Source: a virus
Reading direction: 5' to 3' (one strand)
Virus record (IMG/VR): IMGVR_UViG_3300028027_000300
Span: 1-20,149 of that record
Length of the DNA: 20,149 bases
Shown: positions 8,187 through 16,588 of the stretch, piece by piece
How the letters are laid out: every line of letters begins with the position of its first letter
How positions within the stretch are numbered: position 1 is the stretch's first letter
Position numbers and translations under genes: made by a program
Notes under the pieces: model-generated
Databases searched by the model: none
What the model saw: the letters and a program-made list of their open reading frames with translations, nothing else
What the model was told of the DNA's origin: nothing

Positions 8187-10625
8187 TTAGGTTCTCCCGT
8201 AATTTGTGGCTAAGTTCTTCTCGCCATATTTGTTAGCCGCCCAAATAGCTTTTGAACTACTAAGCAATCTATCTTCAAATGATTTAGTATCAATTGCATT
8301 GATGTAATTGTTAGTCACATTAGTAGTGTTGCCCATTTGATTCATTTGGCTATTAGGAACAATTGTTCCTACGCCAGAAGGCATAAACAATTCTGGCCCT
8401 TTTTCACCAACAATAGTTGGACCTGTAATTGTTCCACCATAAGCAGCTTTAGGGGCAAGGTATTGATTAAAACTAGATGGCAATGCGCCACTATCCATTG
8501 ACGGACCCATTGAAGGAGCAAAAAACATTCGCAAGAATGAAAGAGCAGCAGCTTTCATTTGAATAGCAATCAAGTCCTGAATGATGCTACGGGCCAAATC
8601 TTTCATAGACAATTTGCCTGTTCTAACAAAAGTGTCAATAGCAGAAGACATGTTGCTCCAAATCGTATCGTTGATTTGTTGCGTCTTTCTCATGCTATCT
8701 TGCAGAGAAATAAAAGTTTCTTTCAATGCTTCTGTATCGCGTATTTGCTTTTCAAATAATTGTTTATCTGCTTCATCTAAATTAAGTTTTCTCAGATTAG
8801 CTATTTCTCTTTCAGTTTCTAATCGCAATTTAGAAAGTGCTAATTCTTTCTCTGTTGAGAAAACCATTTGCATTTCTAAGTTTGCTAATTTGGTGCTGTA
8901 TTCCAACTCTTCTCTTTTAGAAGTTGTTTCATTAGCCAATCGTTTGCGGATTTCGTAGATTTCATTTTGACGAGCAACTTCACCCGCTGCAAGCTCTTCT
9001 TGCATTTGGGTAAATTGCTCATTTTCTTTAATAGTAGCTTTCAGTTTAATTTCACGAATCTTGTTGACTCTATCTGCTTCAATTTCTGCAAGTTTAGCTG
9101 TAAGCAATTCTGCATTTCTTGTTGCAAATACATAGCGTTCATCTTCATTGCGCTTTGCCATTTCGCGCTTTAATTCAAAAATTTTGTTGTCTGCTTCTAG
9201 ATCAACTTTTTGCATATCGCTGGCTGTTGCCATTGCAACAACCATTTTTACTTTAGCTTGTGCTTTAGCAACCTCATCAGCATATTGACGAGCTTTTGAA
9301 ATTCCACCGGCAGTGGCGTAATCATCAATTTCTTTCTTTGCATCACCTACATCATTTGCAGCTTTAGACCTAGCTTCAAGTCGGGAAGTTTCAAGCAATG
9401 CTTCTCTTTTTTCTTTAAGAGCTTGCAACTCTTTTCGCTGCGTCTTTGCAAAAGGACTGTCGCCACCTTGTAAGTTTGCTTGAACGGCAGCAATTTGTTT
9501 ATCAAGTGCATCAATAACTTGGTTTGTTGATTCTGGTCTTCCAATAGCTTTAAGCAAATCCCAGAACTCACTAACAGCATTCTTAGTAGACTGCCATGCA
9601 CTTTCAAGATACCCAAGCTCGCGCCTTTGTCTTGCTAATTGAGTATTAAGTGCATCAGATGCAATCTTTGCTGCTTCTTGCTGTTTACCAGCTTTATCAA
9701 GGGCTTCAATTTGCTTGTATTGCGCCAGCGTCAAGAAATTCATTTGTTGGTTTAATGATTTGGCGCCAGAAGCACTACCATCTAAACCAGACATTAATTT
9801 ATCAGCAGCAACCTTTGCATCAACACCAGCAATTTGAGCGTATTGCAAAATAGCCTGAGTTACAGAACTAACAGCATTTTCTGCAAACTTGCCAGAACCA
9901 ACAACAGCATTCAAAGCCTCTCTAGCCGCACCAATTGTCATATTGGTAGCTTTGGCTAATTGATTGGACATTTCAATAAACTTATTGGCAGTAATGCCGG
10001 CATAGTTTCCTGTTAATGCCAATGTGTCGTTAAATTTATCAATTTCATCTCGGCCTTGATATACCGCAAGAGCCAAAGTTCCAAAACCGGCAGCAACAGA
10101 ACCAATGCCCAATACCATTGGAGTAAAGAGTGTTCCAATGGCTCTGAACATATTTCCAACGCCACCCATGACATCCTTTAATTGACCACCTTGCTGAATG
10201 ATGGCAATCAATGGATTTTGTCCAGAAGCAATTTGAGTAAATAAGTCAGTTGTCTGATATGTCAGTTGAATCTTTTGCTGTTCATTTAATTTAAATTGAG
10301 AAGCAGTAGCTTTTGCTGTTGAGGCCGCTACAGCGTCATAAGCTTTGGCTTTTTCTAACAATAATTGCTTCATCTCTTTAGTCGCATTCATAAAGCGACC
10401 AGAAGTAGATTCACGCTCAATTATTTGCACTCTAGTAAGAGTTTTGCCGTAATCATCTGTTGCGTGTTTTAAGGCTGTAATTTCAGCAGCCGCTGCATTG
10501 TTATCTCTACGAATAGCATTCTTTAGCTTGGCATTTTCAGAAATAGCCTTGTCAATAGAAGCGGTAAATTCAGCAGTGTCCAATCCAAGGACAACGCCTA
10601 ATCGGGCAATATTTTGTGAAGCCAT
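8187..10625 (-). CDS. Tail tape measure protein, lambda gpH-type
   Basis: 812 aa. Residues about 121-165 (LTYQTTDLFTQIASGQNP, IIQQGGQLKDVMGGVG) are the hallmark of the prophage tail length tape measure family (TMP_2). A hydrophobic segment at about 160-190 is the likely membrane-active part. Residues about 390-650 are charged coiled coil (LEADNKIFELKREMAKRN, LETEREIANLRKLNLDEADK). The C-terminus has TGKLSMKDLARSIIQDL (near 669-685) and GGTITGPTIVGEKGPELFMP (near 730-749), typical of lambda-family tape measures. The protein sets tail length and is ejected with DNA. At the commonly cited 0.15 nm per residue the tail would be roughly 120 nm, an inference. GAGGAAA precedes the start, which overlaps the upstream stop (TAATG). 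Confidence 0.93.
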   Translation of the reverse strand: MASQNIARLGVVLGLDTAEFTASIDKAISENAKLKNAIRRDNNAAAAEITALKHATDDYGKTLTRVQIIERESTSGRFMNATKEMKQLLLEKAKAYDAVAASTAKATASQFKLNEQQKIQLTYQTTDLFTQIASGQNPLIAIIQQGGQLKDVMGGVGNMFRAIGTLFTPMVLGIGSVAAGFGTLALAVYQGRDEIDKFNDTLALTGNYAGITANKFIEMSNQLAKATNMTIGAAREALNAVVGSGKFAENAVSSVTQAILQYAQIAGVDAKVAADKLMSGLDGSASGAKSLNQQMNFLTLAQYKQIEALDKAGKQQEAAKIASDALNTQLARQRRELGYLESAWQSTKNAVSEFWDLLKAIGRPESTNQVIDALDKQIAAVQANLQGGDSPFAKTQRKELQALKEKREALLETSRLEARSKAANDVGDAKKEIDDYATAGGISKARQYADEVAKAQAKVKMVVAMATASDMQKVDLEADNKIFELKREMAKRNEDERYVFATRNAELLTAKLAEIEADRVNKIREIKLKATIKENEQFTQMQEELAAGEVARQNEIYEIRKRLANETTSKREELEYSTKLANLEMQMVFSTEKELALSKLRLETEREIANLRKLNLDEADKQLFEKQIRDTEALKETFISLQDSMRKTQQINDTIWSNMSSAIDTFVRTGKLSMKDLARSIIQDLIAIQMKAAALSFLRMFFAPSMGPSMDSGALPSSFNQYLAPKAAYGGTITGPTIVGEKGPELFMPSGVGTIVPNSQMNQMGNTTNVTNNYINAIDTKSFEDRLLSSSKAIWAANKYGEKNLATNYGRT

Positions 10626-11116
10626 TATTTCCTCTTTCTAGCCAGCTTGGCAGCGTAATCTGGAATGCGCGAAGCCAGTTGAGATTTTAGAACGGTTAAG
10701 ACCGTTCCAGCATTTTGTTGCAATGCTATACGCATAAAAGGGTTCCCTGCTATTTTGGAAGTGCCAAATTCTTGAGCAAGAGAAACCGCACTTTTCTTGA
10801 CAGAAACCACAGCAATGGCTGCATCAGTTTCATTAACATATTCGCTTTTTTTATCCCTTTCGTTAGGGATACGGGCATCCAAACGAATGGTGTCTCGCAT
10901 ATGAAAAGGATTTTTGGCATCCCTAGGCTTATCACCTACGGGCGCTCTGCTTTGTGCGGAATTTAAAACAGATTCCATAGCGATTTTGGCTGATGGAACT
11001 AGCGTGTTACGGGCCACTAAATCGCCCCGAAAGCCTTCAGCTATTTGTTTTAGCTGCTGCTCAAACTCTTCAAACCCTTCTAGGTCAAAGGTAAGCTTTT
11101 CAGGGACATAGGCCAT
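10625..11116 (-). CDS. HK97-gp10-like head-tail / tail completion protein
   Basis: 163 aa. Features of the HK97 gp10 family (PF04883) are visible. It opens with LEGFEEFEQQLKQIAEGF. APVGDKPRDAKNPFHMRDTI at about residues 58-77 corresponds to the aPv...G.Lr.si motif. AQEFGTSKIAGNPFMRIAL at about 114-132 corresponds to EfGTs...a.PFlrpAl. The C-terminus is very basic (AAKLARKRK). In most relatives this gene lies between head closure and tail terminator genes; here it lies between the tail chaperone and the tape measure. The ATG starts one base after the G-T stop. Function: completion or stabilisation of the head-tail connection or the tail end, known for the family only in outline. Confidence 0.8.
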   Translation of the reverse strand: MAYVPEKLTFDLEGFEEFEQQLKQIAEGFRGDLVARNTLVPSAKIAMESVLNSAQSRAPVGDKPRDAKNPFHMRDTIRLDARIPNERDKKSEYVNETDAAIAVVSVKKSAVSLAQEFGTSKIAGNPFMRIALQQNAGTVLTVLKSQLASRIPDYAAKLARKRK

Positions 11117-11117
11117 T

Positions 11118-11923
11118 TCACACTTTCAAGAACGCCTCCGAACCCGGCATCATACTAATGAAGGCTGACAGCTTGTTATTCACTTCTGCTTTCATCTCTT
11201 CCTCAGTAGGAGGCGGGACAATATATTCATGCGTTGATGGCAACACATCTTTCATTTGAAATGGTGTTGCCGTCTTGGCTATTTTCGAGTTTAAATTGCC
11301 TGTGGTCAAGGAGCTTAAAGCTACCAGAATAGCTTTATTTCCTATCATGCCATCAGACAACATAATCTCTATGTTGACCATATCGTCCACAGGAACATCA
11401 TCAGGACACCCTCCGTGAGCATAAATATACGCCCTAGCCTGCCGGTGGATGTCCTGTATTAGTTTCCCCGTGAAACCTTGTATCCGGGCTGAATGGCTTC
11501 AGTAATCTTGGCTAAAAGCTCAAGCTGCACCTGAATAGGCCATTCAGAATCTACATCTGCATAAGTCAATTCATCAAGCGTACCTTCTTCAGGCACAAGC
11601 AACTTGATAAATGCAACAATTTGGTTTTCTGTGATGAGCGTAGTTTTGACAAGCTCTTTGGTCGGACGACCATCAACTATGACATCATCTTCAGTAATGA
11701 CAATGCCTTCAACAGGCTCACCAGTTCTAAAGCTTGCAGTCATTTTTTCAAATCGACTTTGCAATTCTGCTTCGTCAAATTTGGTGACTCGCTCTTGAAT
11801 CTCATCCATCTCTTTTGTCAGAGGGATGCGAACTTTAAATATGTGACCAGCAAGCTCAAATGTTTTTGTTCTTAGAGCTTCTGTGTTGTATTTACTGCCA
11901 AAGGCAGAACCTAGTCTTGTCAT
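11118..11923 (-). CDS. Tail assembly chaperone G-T fusion (programmed -1 frameshift product)
   Basis: A 268-residue product is predicted: all 154 residues of the G-like protein, then a slip of -1 at GGGAAAC (11462-11468) and 114 residues in the -1 frame. The shifted frame is open right from the slip site (LIQDIHRQARAYIYAHGG) to the stop at 11118. A free-standing start for this second part would have to be a GTG at 11390 with poor spacing, and would lose the RARAYIY segment. By analogy with lambda gpG/gpGT, the T part recruits tail tube subunits to the tape measure coated with G. The ratio of G to G-T is set by shift efficiency. Its place just upstream of gp10-like and tape measure genes fits. 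Confidence 0.85.
11402..11456 (-). promoter_or_regulatory. Frameshift-stimulating stem-loop
   Basis: On the minus strand CAGGACATCC (11447-11456) can pair with GGGTGTCCTG (11402-11411): 10 bp with one U-G pair. After an A-A mismatch CCG/CGG adds 3 bp. An inner GGCGUA/UAUGCU hairpin may sit in the loop. The stem starts 5 nt after the slippery heptamer, the spacing usually needed to stimulate -1 frameshifting. A pseudoknot was not evaluated. Confidence 0.75.
11459..11923 (-). CDS. Tail assembly chaperone, lambda gpG-like
   Basis: 154 aa. The N-terminal part (KYNTEALRTKTFELAGHIFKVRIPLTKEMDEI split over about residues 12-42) has the beta-strand F-x-L-x-G-x-x-F-x-V-x-x-P pattern of tail chaperones, followed by an acidic helical region and a C-terminal QVQLELLAKITEAIQPGY. 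It contains the frameshift site in its last three codons (R-G-N-stop). It lies between tail tube and tape measure, the standard position. The short form is expected to be the abundant product that coats the tape measure during tail assembly and is absent from the mature virion. AAGG precedes the ATG by about 8 nt. Confidence 0.8.
   Translation of the reverse strand: MTRLGSAFGSKYNTEALRTKTFELAGHIFKVRIPLTKEMDEIQERVTKFDEAELQSRFEKMTASFRTGEPVEGIVITEDDVIVDGRPTKELVKTTLITENQIVAFIKLLVPEEGTLDELTYADVDSEWPIQVQLELLAKITEAIQPGYKVSRGN
11462..11468 (-). promoter_or_regulatory. Slippery heptamer GGGAAAC for -1 frameshift
   Basis: In the zero frame the site reads G GGA AAC followed directly by TAA, the exact X-XXY-YYZ form. 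After a one-base backward slip the two tRNAs pair with GGG and AAA and the next codon is CTA in the long open -1 frame. Lambda uses GGGAAAG at the same position in G/GT. Confidence 0.88.
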
Positions 11924-12163: not shown

Positions 12164-12688
12164 TTAGGTGTTGTTAGACCAGCCGTAGCTATTTCCACCT
12201 ACTGGGTGAATAGTAAAGATGAATTTGCCTTCTGCAGAAGGAGACATGTCCCACTGCAATCCACCAACGCGACCGTTGAAGGCGTAAGCAACAGTGTCTT
12301 CACCGTCATAAACAGCAATAACATAGGTGCGAATAATTGTGCCGTTATAGCCGTCATCACGGATCAACAACTGAGCAGTGTCAGCAGGATTCCATGCAGC
12401 GGTAATAGTCAGCGAAGTCACTTGGTTTTGTGTAGTGATTTTCGCGCCTGTACGAGCGCCAGCTACTGAGTAAGCAGCAAAAGCGTCATCAGCACCGAAA
12501 GCTGGAACAGCTTCCACAGGGACCAAGATACCAGCAGTGCCAGTGCCGCCAGCAGCAGTACCAACAATGGTTGCAACTTGAGCAGTCCAAGTAGAAAGTT
12601 GAGTATCAGTCAAAGCTACTGGATTAGCGTCATCTTGACACCAGAGAGTCGCGGTATAACCGGGAAGAATTTTGTTAATTAAAGCCAT
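12164..12688 (-). CDS. Major tail tube protein
   Basis: 174 aa. The protein begins MALINKILPGYTATLWCQDD and has alternating beta-strands throughout, Ala/Gly/Thr-rich as usual for tube subunits. The late segment VYDGEDTVAYAFNGRVGGLQWDMSPSAEGKFIFTI (read in parts: TVAYAFNGRVGGLQW, EGKFIFTI) fits the end of a tail tube fold, where a G-x-V strand is followed by a hairpin. It has a strong AAGGAAA ribosome site, matching a highly made protein. Position between the tail terminator and the chaperone pair is the usual one. Hexamers of this protein stack to form the tail tube. Confidence 0.78.
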   Translation of the reverse strand: MALINKILPGYTATLWCQDDANPVALTDTQLSTWTAQVATIVGTAAGGTGTAGILVPVEAVPAFGADDAFAAYSVAGARTGAKITTQNQVTSLTITAAWNPADTAQLLIRDDGYNGTIIRTYVIAVYDGEDTVAYAFNGRVGGLQWDMSPSAEGKFIFTIHPVGGNSYGWSNNT

Positions 12689-14173: not shown

Positions 14174-15187
14174 TCAGGCGCTCATTCGCACACCAGCGAA
14201 TGGGTCACGAACTGAGCTTACCACACGCTTTTCAGCATAGATGGTAACAAAGCCGGGGCTAGTTTGTTCAAACATCTGAATGGACATTTCTTCATTGTCG
14301 CCAATGGTCAAGAAACGGGGCCAGTTAGCCAAATAGATTGGGAATGAAGTAGACAGGTATGGGTTAGGAATCACAGGGAAACCAAACATACGGCCTACAG
14401 CAGCACCATCTTCATCGCCAATTTCCAAGAACAATGGAAGACCTTGCGTGTCTTTCAAACTACGCAGTGAATCAATCATTGATGGACGGATGTACCAAGC
14501 ATTGCCGGGCAAAGACCAGTACTGGCTTGGGAACGCATTAACAACATCAACAATATCGTTATACACAACACCACCGCTTGTTTGTGCAACAGTAGCAATA
14601 GAGTGAATGCCGTTTGTAATTGCAGTGCCACTTGTGCCATAAGCAGAAGCAGAAGCAGAGACATACATGTCCAAACCACGCAAACCTGATGTAGCACCGG
14701 TTGATGTGGTTGTTGAACCAGCTTGATCGCTGTTGATTGCCATCGATGCGCCTTCAACTTGAGCAAACTCAAGCATCAAGTCGTTAACAATGGAGGCTTC
14801 CAAACCATTCACATCTGACATAACAGCAGAACGGATTGGCAATTGAGCAGTAACAACACGAACAGGCAGTTGCCAGATTGATGTGTTGATATTTGGGCTA
14901 CCTGTGTTGTTTTGAACAGGATAACCCCAAGGGTTTGTTTGATATGTCGCGTTACCAGTTTTAGCAACGAACTGCATATCAGAACCAGACGCTGGAACAA
15001 TACGAGCGCCCAATCGGAATGGGTTAGCGTAACGCAGTGCTGCGAAAGCTTCATCAAAAATCACGCGACCACCAACACCAGAACCAGAGCCAGTGATTGC
15101 AGAGGCTTCTTTCAGGTCGATGTTGACTTTGCCGCCCTCAGTAATGGCCTGTTTGATTCCAGAGAGAATTTTTTCGGTGATGGTCAT
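14174..15187 (-). CDS. Second HK97-fold major capsid-type protein (no delta domain)
   Basis: 337 aa. Clearly paralogous to the upstream capsid protein: from residue 27 (EASAITGSG) on, the two align nearly end to end, with about half the positions identical over the first 125 by hand. Shared blocks include FAALR-ANP, KTGNA, TSIWQL, DGLEA/NGLEA, EFAQ-E and the C-terminal EKR...SVRDP-AGVR. The 100-residue N-terminal scaffolding part of the first protein is replaced by only about 26 residues (MTITEKILSGIKQAITEGGK). It could be a vertex (penton) or minor capsid subunit, as T4 gp24 is to gp23, or a mixed shell component. An AGGAAA site precedes it, and an intrinsic terminator stands between the two genes. 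Confidence 0.85.
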   Translation of the reverse strand: MTITEKILSGIKQAITEGGKVNIDLKEASAITGSGSGVGGRVIFDEAFAALRYANPFRLGARIVPASGSDMQFVAKTGNATYQTNPWGYPVQNNTGSPNINTSIWQLPVRVVTAQLPIRSAVMSDVNGLEASIVNDLMLEFAQVEGASMAINSDQAGSTTTSTGATSGLRGLDMYVSASASAYGTSGTAITNGIHSIATVAQTSGGVVYNDIVDVVNAFPSQYWSLPGNAWYIRPSMIDSLRSLKDTQGLPLFLEIGDEDGAAVGRMFGFPVIPNPYLSTSFPIYLANWPRFLTIGDNEEMSIQMFEQTSPGFVTIYAEKRVVSSVRDPFAGVRMSA

Positions 15188-15244: not shown

Positions 15245-16588
15245 TCAGGCTGCTGTGCCTGTAGAACGATAGCGAACACCAGCGTTAGGATCACGCACAG
15301 ATGTTGCCAAACGCTTCTCACCGAAGAAGGTGATGTAACCGGGCAATGTCTGGTCGTATCTACGCATAACCATGTTCAGACGGTCGATGATTGTGTGGAA
15401 GCGGCTCCAGTCAGCGAAGTACATTGGATACAAGCTGTTAGTGCCGGCAGAAGCCACAGTAGTTTGTGAAGGAGTATCGCAATACTTGTTCACAACAACA
15501 TCGAAGCCCAACAAGTTGCCAACAATACCGTCAACAGACAAACCTTCATTACGATTGAAGATAGGTGCGCCATTGTCATCTTTCAATGCACGAATAGCAT
15601 TCAACAGGATTGGGCTGATAACGAACTTAGCGCTTTCGGTCCAATATTGTTGCGGGAGGCTATATACGAAATTGACCACATCGGTATAGGTGATGTTGTT
15701 GGCGCCAACAGTATTAGCGTTAGTTGTCAATTGGTCGTATGTTGCCAAGCTGTGCAAGCCGCTGGTAGAACCAGTGCCAGAAGAGCCGAAGGCAGCAGTA
15801 GTGCAAACACCACCAGCATAAGTTGACGCAGCACCAGCGTATTGGTCAAGGCCACGCAATCCGTTGCTTCCACCGTATGGCAAAGAAGTCAAACCTTGGT
15901 CGTTATTTTGCATCATGCTGAGAGCTTCAGCTTGAGCAAATTCAGCCAACATGTCATCAACGACATTGGCTTCCAAACCATCGATGTCATCCAATGCAGC
16001 AGTACGGATTGGGAACTGAACATTCAAGTCTTGCAAAACGAGTTGCCAGATAGAAGTGTCTTCAGTTGTAGCAGCACCGTTGTTCTGAATGCCATAGCCC
16101 CAAGCAGCGCCAGCGTTGCCGGTCTTGACACGGAACTGGTAGCTTGAACCATCGGTAGCAACAGTGCGTGAAACACCGCGCAATGGATTAGCCAAACGCA
16201 GTGCAGCAAACACTGGGTCATAAGCGGTACGACCACCTTGATTGTTACCAGAACCTGTCAAAGCAGAAGCTTCGTTCAGGTAAGCTTGCATTTGTGATTC
16301 GTCAGCAAAAATTTGCAGTTCTTTTTCTACACGGTTGTTACCTTTGTAGAAAGAAGACAGTTGCTCGCGAACGCTGCGGTTCACATCTTGACGAATAGTC
16401 TTGGCAACAGGCTTGTGCAGAGCAGGAGCTTCAATAGAAGACACTTTGGCTTCCAGAGCAGCAACCATTTCGCTGAATTCAGCTTTAACAGCTTCAACAG
16501 CAGCGGGGATTTTGGCCTCAACAGCCGCAACGCTCTCAGCTTGTTTAGCTTCGATAGCGTCCAATTTTTCAATGATTTCTTTTGACAT
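15245..16588 (-). CDS. Major capsid protein, HK97 family, with delta domain
   Basis: 447 aa. Residues 1-55 are an Ala/Glu/Lys coiled coil (EKLDAIEAKQAESVAAVEAK), the scaffolding delta domain, followed by a linker and then the HK97 fold from about residue 107 (EASALTGSG). FAALRLANPLRG, KTGNAGAAWGYG, TSIWQL and the C-terminal GEKRLATSVRDPNAGVRY are conserved features of this capsid family. The prohead protease encoded next door would be expected to remove the delta domain before expansion, cutting near residue 100-107, an inference. Protease and capsid genes are 2 bases apart. The gene is followed by a strong terminator, consistent with high expression. Confidence 0.93.
   Translation of the reverse strand: MSKEIIEKLDAIEAKQAESVAAVEAKIPAAVEAVKAEFSEMVAALEAKVSSIEAPALHKPVAKTIRQDVNRSVREQLSSFYKGNNRVEKELQIFADESQMQAYLNEASALTGSGNNQGGRTAYDPVFAALRLANPLRGVSRTVATDGSSYQFRVKTGNAGAAWGYGIQNNGAATTEDTSIWQLVLQDLNVQFPIRTAALDDIDGLEANVVDDMLAEFAQAEALSMMQNNDQGLTSLPYGGSNGLRGLDQYAGAASTYAGGVCTTAAFGSSGTGSTSGLHSLATYDQLTTNANTVGANNITYTDVVNFVYSLPQQYWTESAKFVISPILLNAIRALKDDNGAPIFNRNEGLSVDGIVGNLLGFDVVVNKYCDTPSQTTVASAGTNSLYPMYFADWSRFHTIIDRLNMVMRRYDQTLPGYITFFGEKRLATSVRDPNAGVRYRSTGTAA

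Follow-up and report, generated by a model that had tools for sequence, protein, structure and literature searches.

When a reading frame in the late region of a virus stops and another opens at the same point in the −1 frame, are two proteins made there, or would some ribosomes change frame and extend the first protein with the second? This question is raised by a 20,149-base virus record, called here the window, the late genes of which lie on the minus strand (Table 1). The frame of its G-like protein (11923-11459, −) ends with ...AAG GTT TCA CGG GGA AAC TAA, so that the heptamer is read in the phase G_GGA_AAC and touches the stop codon, as a preliminary description of this DNA had claimed. 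The same description was right that, starting with the final heptamer base (11462), 114 codons can be read in the −1 frame before a stop. This frame, T, opens with CTA ATA CAG GAC and runs to a TGA at 11120-11118; the predicted G-T fusion is about 268 amino acids long, with the junction ...VSRGN-LIQDIHR.... An open-reading-frame check agreed that a standard gene caller would begin T at GTG 11390. Since GGGAAAC occurs three times in the window against 1.8 expected, the heptamer alone has little meaning, and a signal beyond chance comes not from its presence but from its conservation at the junction together with a covarying hairpin.

Table 1. Coordinates of the features at the G-T junction and of the neighbouring tail genes in the window
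Feature	Coordinates	Strand	Remarks
Tail tape measure protein	8187-10625	−	phrog_24, E 8.4e-89
HK97-gp10/Neck1-like gene	10625-11116	−	phrog_5, E 5.4e-8; TIGR01725, E 5.3e-7, just under its cut-off
T domain, −1 frame, 114 codons (CTA ... TGA)	11118-11462	−	predicted C-terminal extension of G
RNA hairpin	11402-11456	−	outer stem 11456-11444 with 11414-11402; inner 7 bp; loop 11427-11424
Zero-frame stop TAA	11459-11461	−	directly 3' of slip site
G-like tail assembly chaperone, zero frame, 154 aa	11459-11923	−	ends G GGA AAC TAA
Slip site GGGAAAC (G_GGA_AAC)	11462-11468	−	GGGAAAC or AAAAAAC here in every distinct window-clade junction
Probable tail tube protein	12164-12688	−	from position upstream of G only; no family match

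Relatives were gathered by scans with the T frame, and then with an alignment query and divergent members as queries. In total, 148 distinct homologous junctions were collected, which belong to the clade of the window and to a sister clade that contains Methylophilaceae phage P19250A. The T-frame scans gave 80 relatives, 63-100% identical, in which the match begins at residue 1, with the base right after GGGAAA. Junctions of the window clade carry GGGAAAC or AAAAAAC exclusively, always in phase, and AAAAAAC is the slip site of most close relatives. The arginine codon that precedes the heptamer always supplies the fitting first base: CGG or AGG before GGA AAC, and CGA or AGA before AAA AAC. The slip sites of the sister clade are of the A_AAG type (NTCAAAG-TAG/TAA or similar), with a single tRNA. 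In 147 of the 148 distinct junctions the slip site is followed at once by a stop codon; in the sole exception, L082 of the window clade, the stop comes one codon later. An insertion or deletion, introduced by assembly error or by decay of the gene, would also put one protein in two frames, but the frame is broken at one and the same place in all these junctions, which come from many metagenomes and from an isolated phage. This refutes the explanation and leaves it a negligible probability.

A 10-bp stem had been described as beginning 5 nt past the heptamer. It is present in the window (CAGGACATCC, 11456-11447, with GGGTGTCCTG, 11411-11402), but the stem that the relatives keep differs slightly from it. 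Their consensus stem begins 6 nt past the heptamer and has 12 pairs (11455-11444 with 11414-11403), of which the window replaces one with an A.A mismatch (11446/11412), and the C11456-G11402 pair is not conserved across relatives. The further inner pairing mentioned in the same description turned out to be a 7-bp hairpin, GGGCGTA (11434-11428) with TATGCTC (11423-11417). The window stem folds with −27.6 kcal/mol (z = −4.4 against dinucleotide shuffles, 0/200 as stable).

In 49 distinct window-clade junctions, the 12 outer and 7 inner pairs show 99.0% standard pairing, compared with 33-51% when the structure is slid by 1-3 columns, and the cells in which both sides have changed number 42, against 16.6 after shuffling (0/500). 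RNAalifold recovered the same window-clade structure unaided. Among 80 sequences, 96.1% of positions were paired, as opposed to 72.1 ± 0.9% with random synonymous codons that keep the protein. Shuffling codons within columns among sequences with the same amino acid gave a pairing null of 93.3 ± 0.25%, and here the double-change cells were 55 observed against 21.6 expected (0/500). A tree of the window clade, computed only with codons that are not part of the hairpin, gave a count of 26 two-sided changes that preserve a pair. In the sister clade the 6-nt spacing recurs, but the 10-bp stem is another one; its pairing is 99.8%, and 8 of the 10 changes mapped on the tree are two-sided. The preliminary description had suggested that a strong downstream stem may make up for the absent Lys-AAG anticodon advantage. 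This suggestion is speculative, and relatives in the sister clade with A_AAG also retain a strong hairpin. As pairing and two-sided changes are found in each clade and the stem sequences are unrelated, the hairpin is, as judged from these alignments, maintained by selection in both clades despite completely different sequence. The heptamer, as GGGAAAC or AAAAAAC, and the pairing of the stem, the conservation of which the preliminary description had left to be checked, are both kept in the window clade, the stem with many compensatory changes. A downstream structure of this kind is a usual though not universal part of G/GT frameshift signals.

Support is better for the outer stem than for the inner hairpin (P2), since the latter becomes weaker or changes its register among the most divergent relatives. 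A pseudoknot, also raised in the preliminary description, did not emerge as a conserved element: neither the internal nor the terminal loop has a downstream partner of at least 5 pairs in more than 40% of the sequences. No Rfam family matched at the frameshift site.

The spacing of the hairpin also bears on whether the T frame could be reached through transcriptional slippage on an A-run, which would yield mRNAs already in that frame. The AAAAAAC relatives do offer six consecutive A's, but a run of this length is short for polymerase slippage. In the window the sequence is GGGGAAAC, members of the P19250A clade have AAA or AAAA only, and the fixed 6-nt distance to the hairpin and the adjacent stop are features of a ribosomal event. 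We therefore consider slippage of the polymerase highly improbable.

How T is translated can be judged from its codons. Homology of T starts at codon 1 in all relatives among the matches listed. The amino acids of codons 8-17 (QARAYIYAHG) hardly change while synonymous variation is present, and the synonymous variation ratio is 0.31 in the codons of the hairpin arms, 0.81 in loop codons 8-16 and 0.75 in the rest of T. T is, on this codon evidence, under protein-level selection from its first codon. A different reading would make T a separate protein, produced from an internal start such as GTG 11390 by termination-reinitiation, with the hairpin controlling the coupling and with no fusion formed. 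The GTG is indeed present, T is listed in the P19250A record as a gene of its own that begins at an internal ATG, possible starts inside T occur in some relatives, and the absence of an own start is weaker in the P19250A clade, most members of which have an ATG at codon 13. However, conservation of T begins well upstream of GTG 11390, which is codon 25 and is replaced by GTT, GCG or ACG in most relatives. Moreover, 77 of the 99 distinct window-clade junctions lack any ATG, GTG or TTG between the nearest upstream stop of the T frame and codon 24, and the exact phase of the slip site would be left unexplained by reinitiation. We regard reinitiation as very unlikely; frameshift entry is the simplest explanation, because the T protein is conserved from the junction, most relatives lack a start there and GTG 11390 is unconserved. 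Farther into T, codons 51-63 (about 11312-11274, −) show lowered synonymous variation and contain a TTGACC...TTAAACTCGAAAATA-like sequence. No RNA fold is conserved there, and the stretch may hold an internal promoter (TTGACC, 17-nt spacer, GAAAAT) or some other element.

The protein encoded by G and its neighbourhood were compared with those of known tail chaperones. Tail assembly chaperone proteins are highly diverged, and neither G nor T gave a significant sequence match to tail-chaperone families; one homologue weakly matches the phrog_344 tail assembly chaperone (E 0.0029). When G was modelled with AlphaFold on an alignment of 33 homologues, pLDDT reached 82, as compared with 35 for the single-sequence fold. 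The best PDB match of the alignment-based model was the HK97 tail assembly chaperone 2OB9, weak by E-value (Foldseek E 0.23, probability 0.84), which was also the top match by VIA-align (Z 5.9, rmsd 3.8 Å over 101 residues). This match of a predicted model is suggestive of a chaperone fold for G, below firm significance. G and T lie upstream of the tape measure gene, with the one gp10-like gene intervening between them and it.

A 75-aa frame with no family match (12160-11934, −) separates the probable tail tube gene from G; P19250A has two extra genes in this interval. Upstream, the window carries tandem HK97-type major capsid genes, one of 447 aa (15245-16588, −) and one of 337 aa (14174-15187, −), the products of which are 42% identical, the shorter one being without the N-terminal part. 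P19250A has two matching places for these genes too, and they possibly encode a two-component capsid shell.

Frameshifting of the G/GT type is a textbook case (PMC5009743). In λ, T is added to G by a −1 shift close to the G terminus (Levin 1993 and Xu 2004, as cited in PMC5009743); the λ sequence has the GGGAAAG that the preliminary description mentioned, but it lies 15 nt before the G stop and no gene stands between T and H. HK97 gp13/gp14 resemble the window in that a −1 frameshift, in the window a predicted one, precedes the tape measure gene, and HK97 also provides the best fold match for G, but the HK97 site is GGGAAAA, 16 nt before the stop, and no sequence similarity was found. The preliminary description had considered GGGAAAC a less usual variant. 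In tail genes it is not especially rare: the heptamer has been reported in those of KL1, Colossus and HCTV-1. The tail chaperone slip sites are G_GGA_AAC and A_AAA_AAC in haloviruses HCTV-1/-2 (PMC5009743), and AAAAAAC and GGGAAAC in Caulobacter phages phiCbK/Colossus (PMC3556154); all of these belong to phage groups different from that of the window and share the slip sites of its clade.

The closest arrangements are found in two other phages. In Burkholderia phage KL1 (gp18/gp19, JF939047), GGGAAAC lies immediately upstream of a stop, here TGA, and a tail gene intervenes before the tape measure gene (PMC3483164); unlike the window, KL1 has a weak near hairpin and a strong stem from about 30 nt downstream, and homology of G is not detectable. 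In Acinetobacter phage vB_AbaS_Loki (gp12/gp13, LN890663), the heptamer is directly followed by TAA and a gp10-like gene stands between the chaperones and the tape measure gene, as in the window, but the slip bases are AAAAAAC (PMC5313236). The hairpin in the Loki sequence, which we checked, begins 8 nt past the slip site, protein homology with the window is not detectable, and the Loki frameshift is a predicted one too. Sequence and profile comparison of G and T with the Loki, KL1 and HK97 chaperones gave nothing significant. Thus, GGGAAAC or AAAAAAC touching the stop and an extra gene before the tape measure have already been described in KL1 and Loki, and the comparison with these two phages, λ and HK97 places the window in a known class by architecture, not by detectable homology.

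The only cultured relative that we found is Methylophilaceae phage P19250A (KX815270), in which genes 0013 and 0014, annotated as two hypothetical proteins, are homologous to G (39% identity) and T (27%). It has the same −1 arrangement, adjacent stop and hairpin at 6-nt spacing, and differs from the window in its A_AAG-type site (NTCAAAG-TAG/TAA) and in the unrelated sequence of its stem.

Taken together, the conservation of the slip site, the compensatory changes in the hairpin, the codon-level conservation of T before any start, the gene order and the fold make it very probable that the locus is a λ/HK97-type G/GT tail-chaperone programmed −1 frameshift of a siphovirus-like phage. The central claim of the preliminary description is therefore upheld by sequence layout, conservation, RNA structure, gene order and fold. 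From these features we infer that slippage occurs, that it proceeds with some efficiency, and, by analogy, that G and T function as chaperones. Most ribosomes would translate G and terminate at the TAA; a minority would pause at the hairpin, the base of which lies about 6 nt past the slip site, and perhaps also at the stop codon as it enters the A site, would slip back one base on G_GGA_AAC and would continue with CTA ATA CAG to complete the fusion. In λ and HK97 terms, G would form a coat on the tape measure protein, and G-T, the less abundant of the two, would link the G-coated tape measure complex to the tail tube subunit, so that the shift rate would set the G:GT ratio. A point against this reading is that in E. 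coli A_AAA_AAC is reported to be much less shift-prone than A_AAA_AAG (PMC5009743).

The one less usual point of the locus is a possible role of the adjacent stop, as if slow termination, with the stop codon in the A site, let the P-site tRNA slip by −1 (a 'shifty stop'). The Leu-1 codon of T, which supplies bases of the stop, is CTA in 70 of 80 sequences, against 35 of 845 leucine codons elsewhere in T, and the Val-1 codon of the sister clade is GTA in 42 of 43. For most members of the P19250A clade, good re-pairing is possible for the last tRNA alone (Lys on AAG), as the preceding UCA codon does not allow it, and between the clades the hairpin sequence differs while the spacing and the adjacent stop are kept. 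The adjacency of the stop and the bias of these first codons fit a stop-assisted shift. However, selection on where G ends would produce the same pattern of adjacency, and L082 is also an exception to it; we put this role forward only tentatively, as a rather doubtful possibility.

The T family has hundreds of matches in viral contigs, but the species genomes of bacteria and archaea, 84,980 in number, gave none. This distribution points to lytic phages of little-sampled aquatic hosts as its carriers, and the phage of the window is a tailed phage of freshwater type. The analysis names the likely tail chaperones of an uncultured aquatic phage group, in which annotation otherwise leaves G and T as unknown proteins, and it provides a deep natural alignment, with more than 120 distinct hairpins in two clades, which lets one ask which parts of a bacterial −1 signal persist: the type of slip site, the 6-nt spacing, the hairpin or the adjacent stop.
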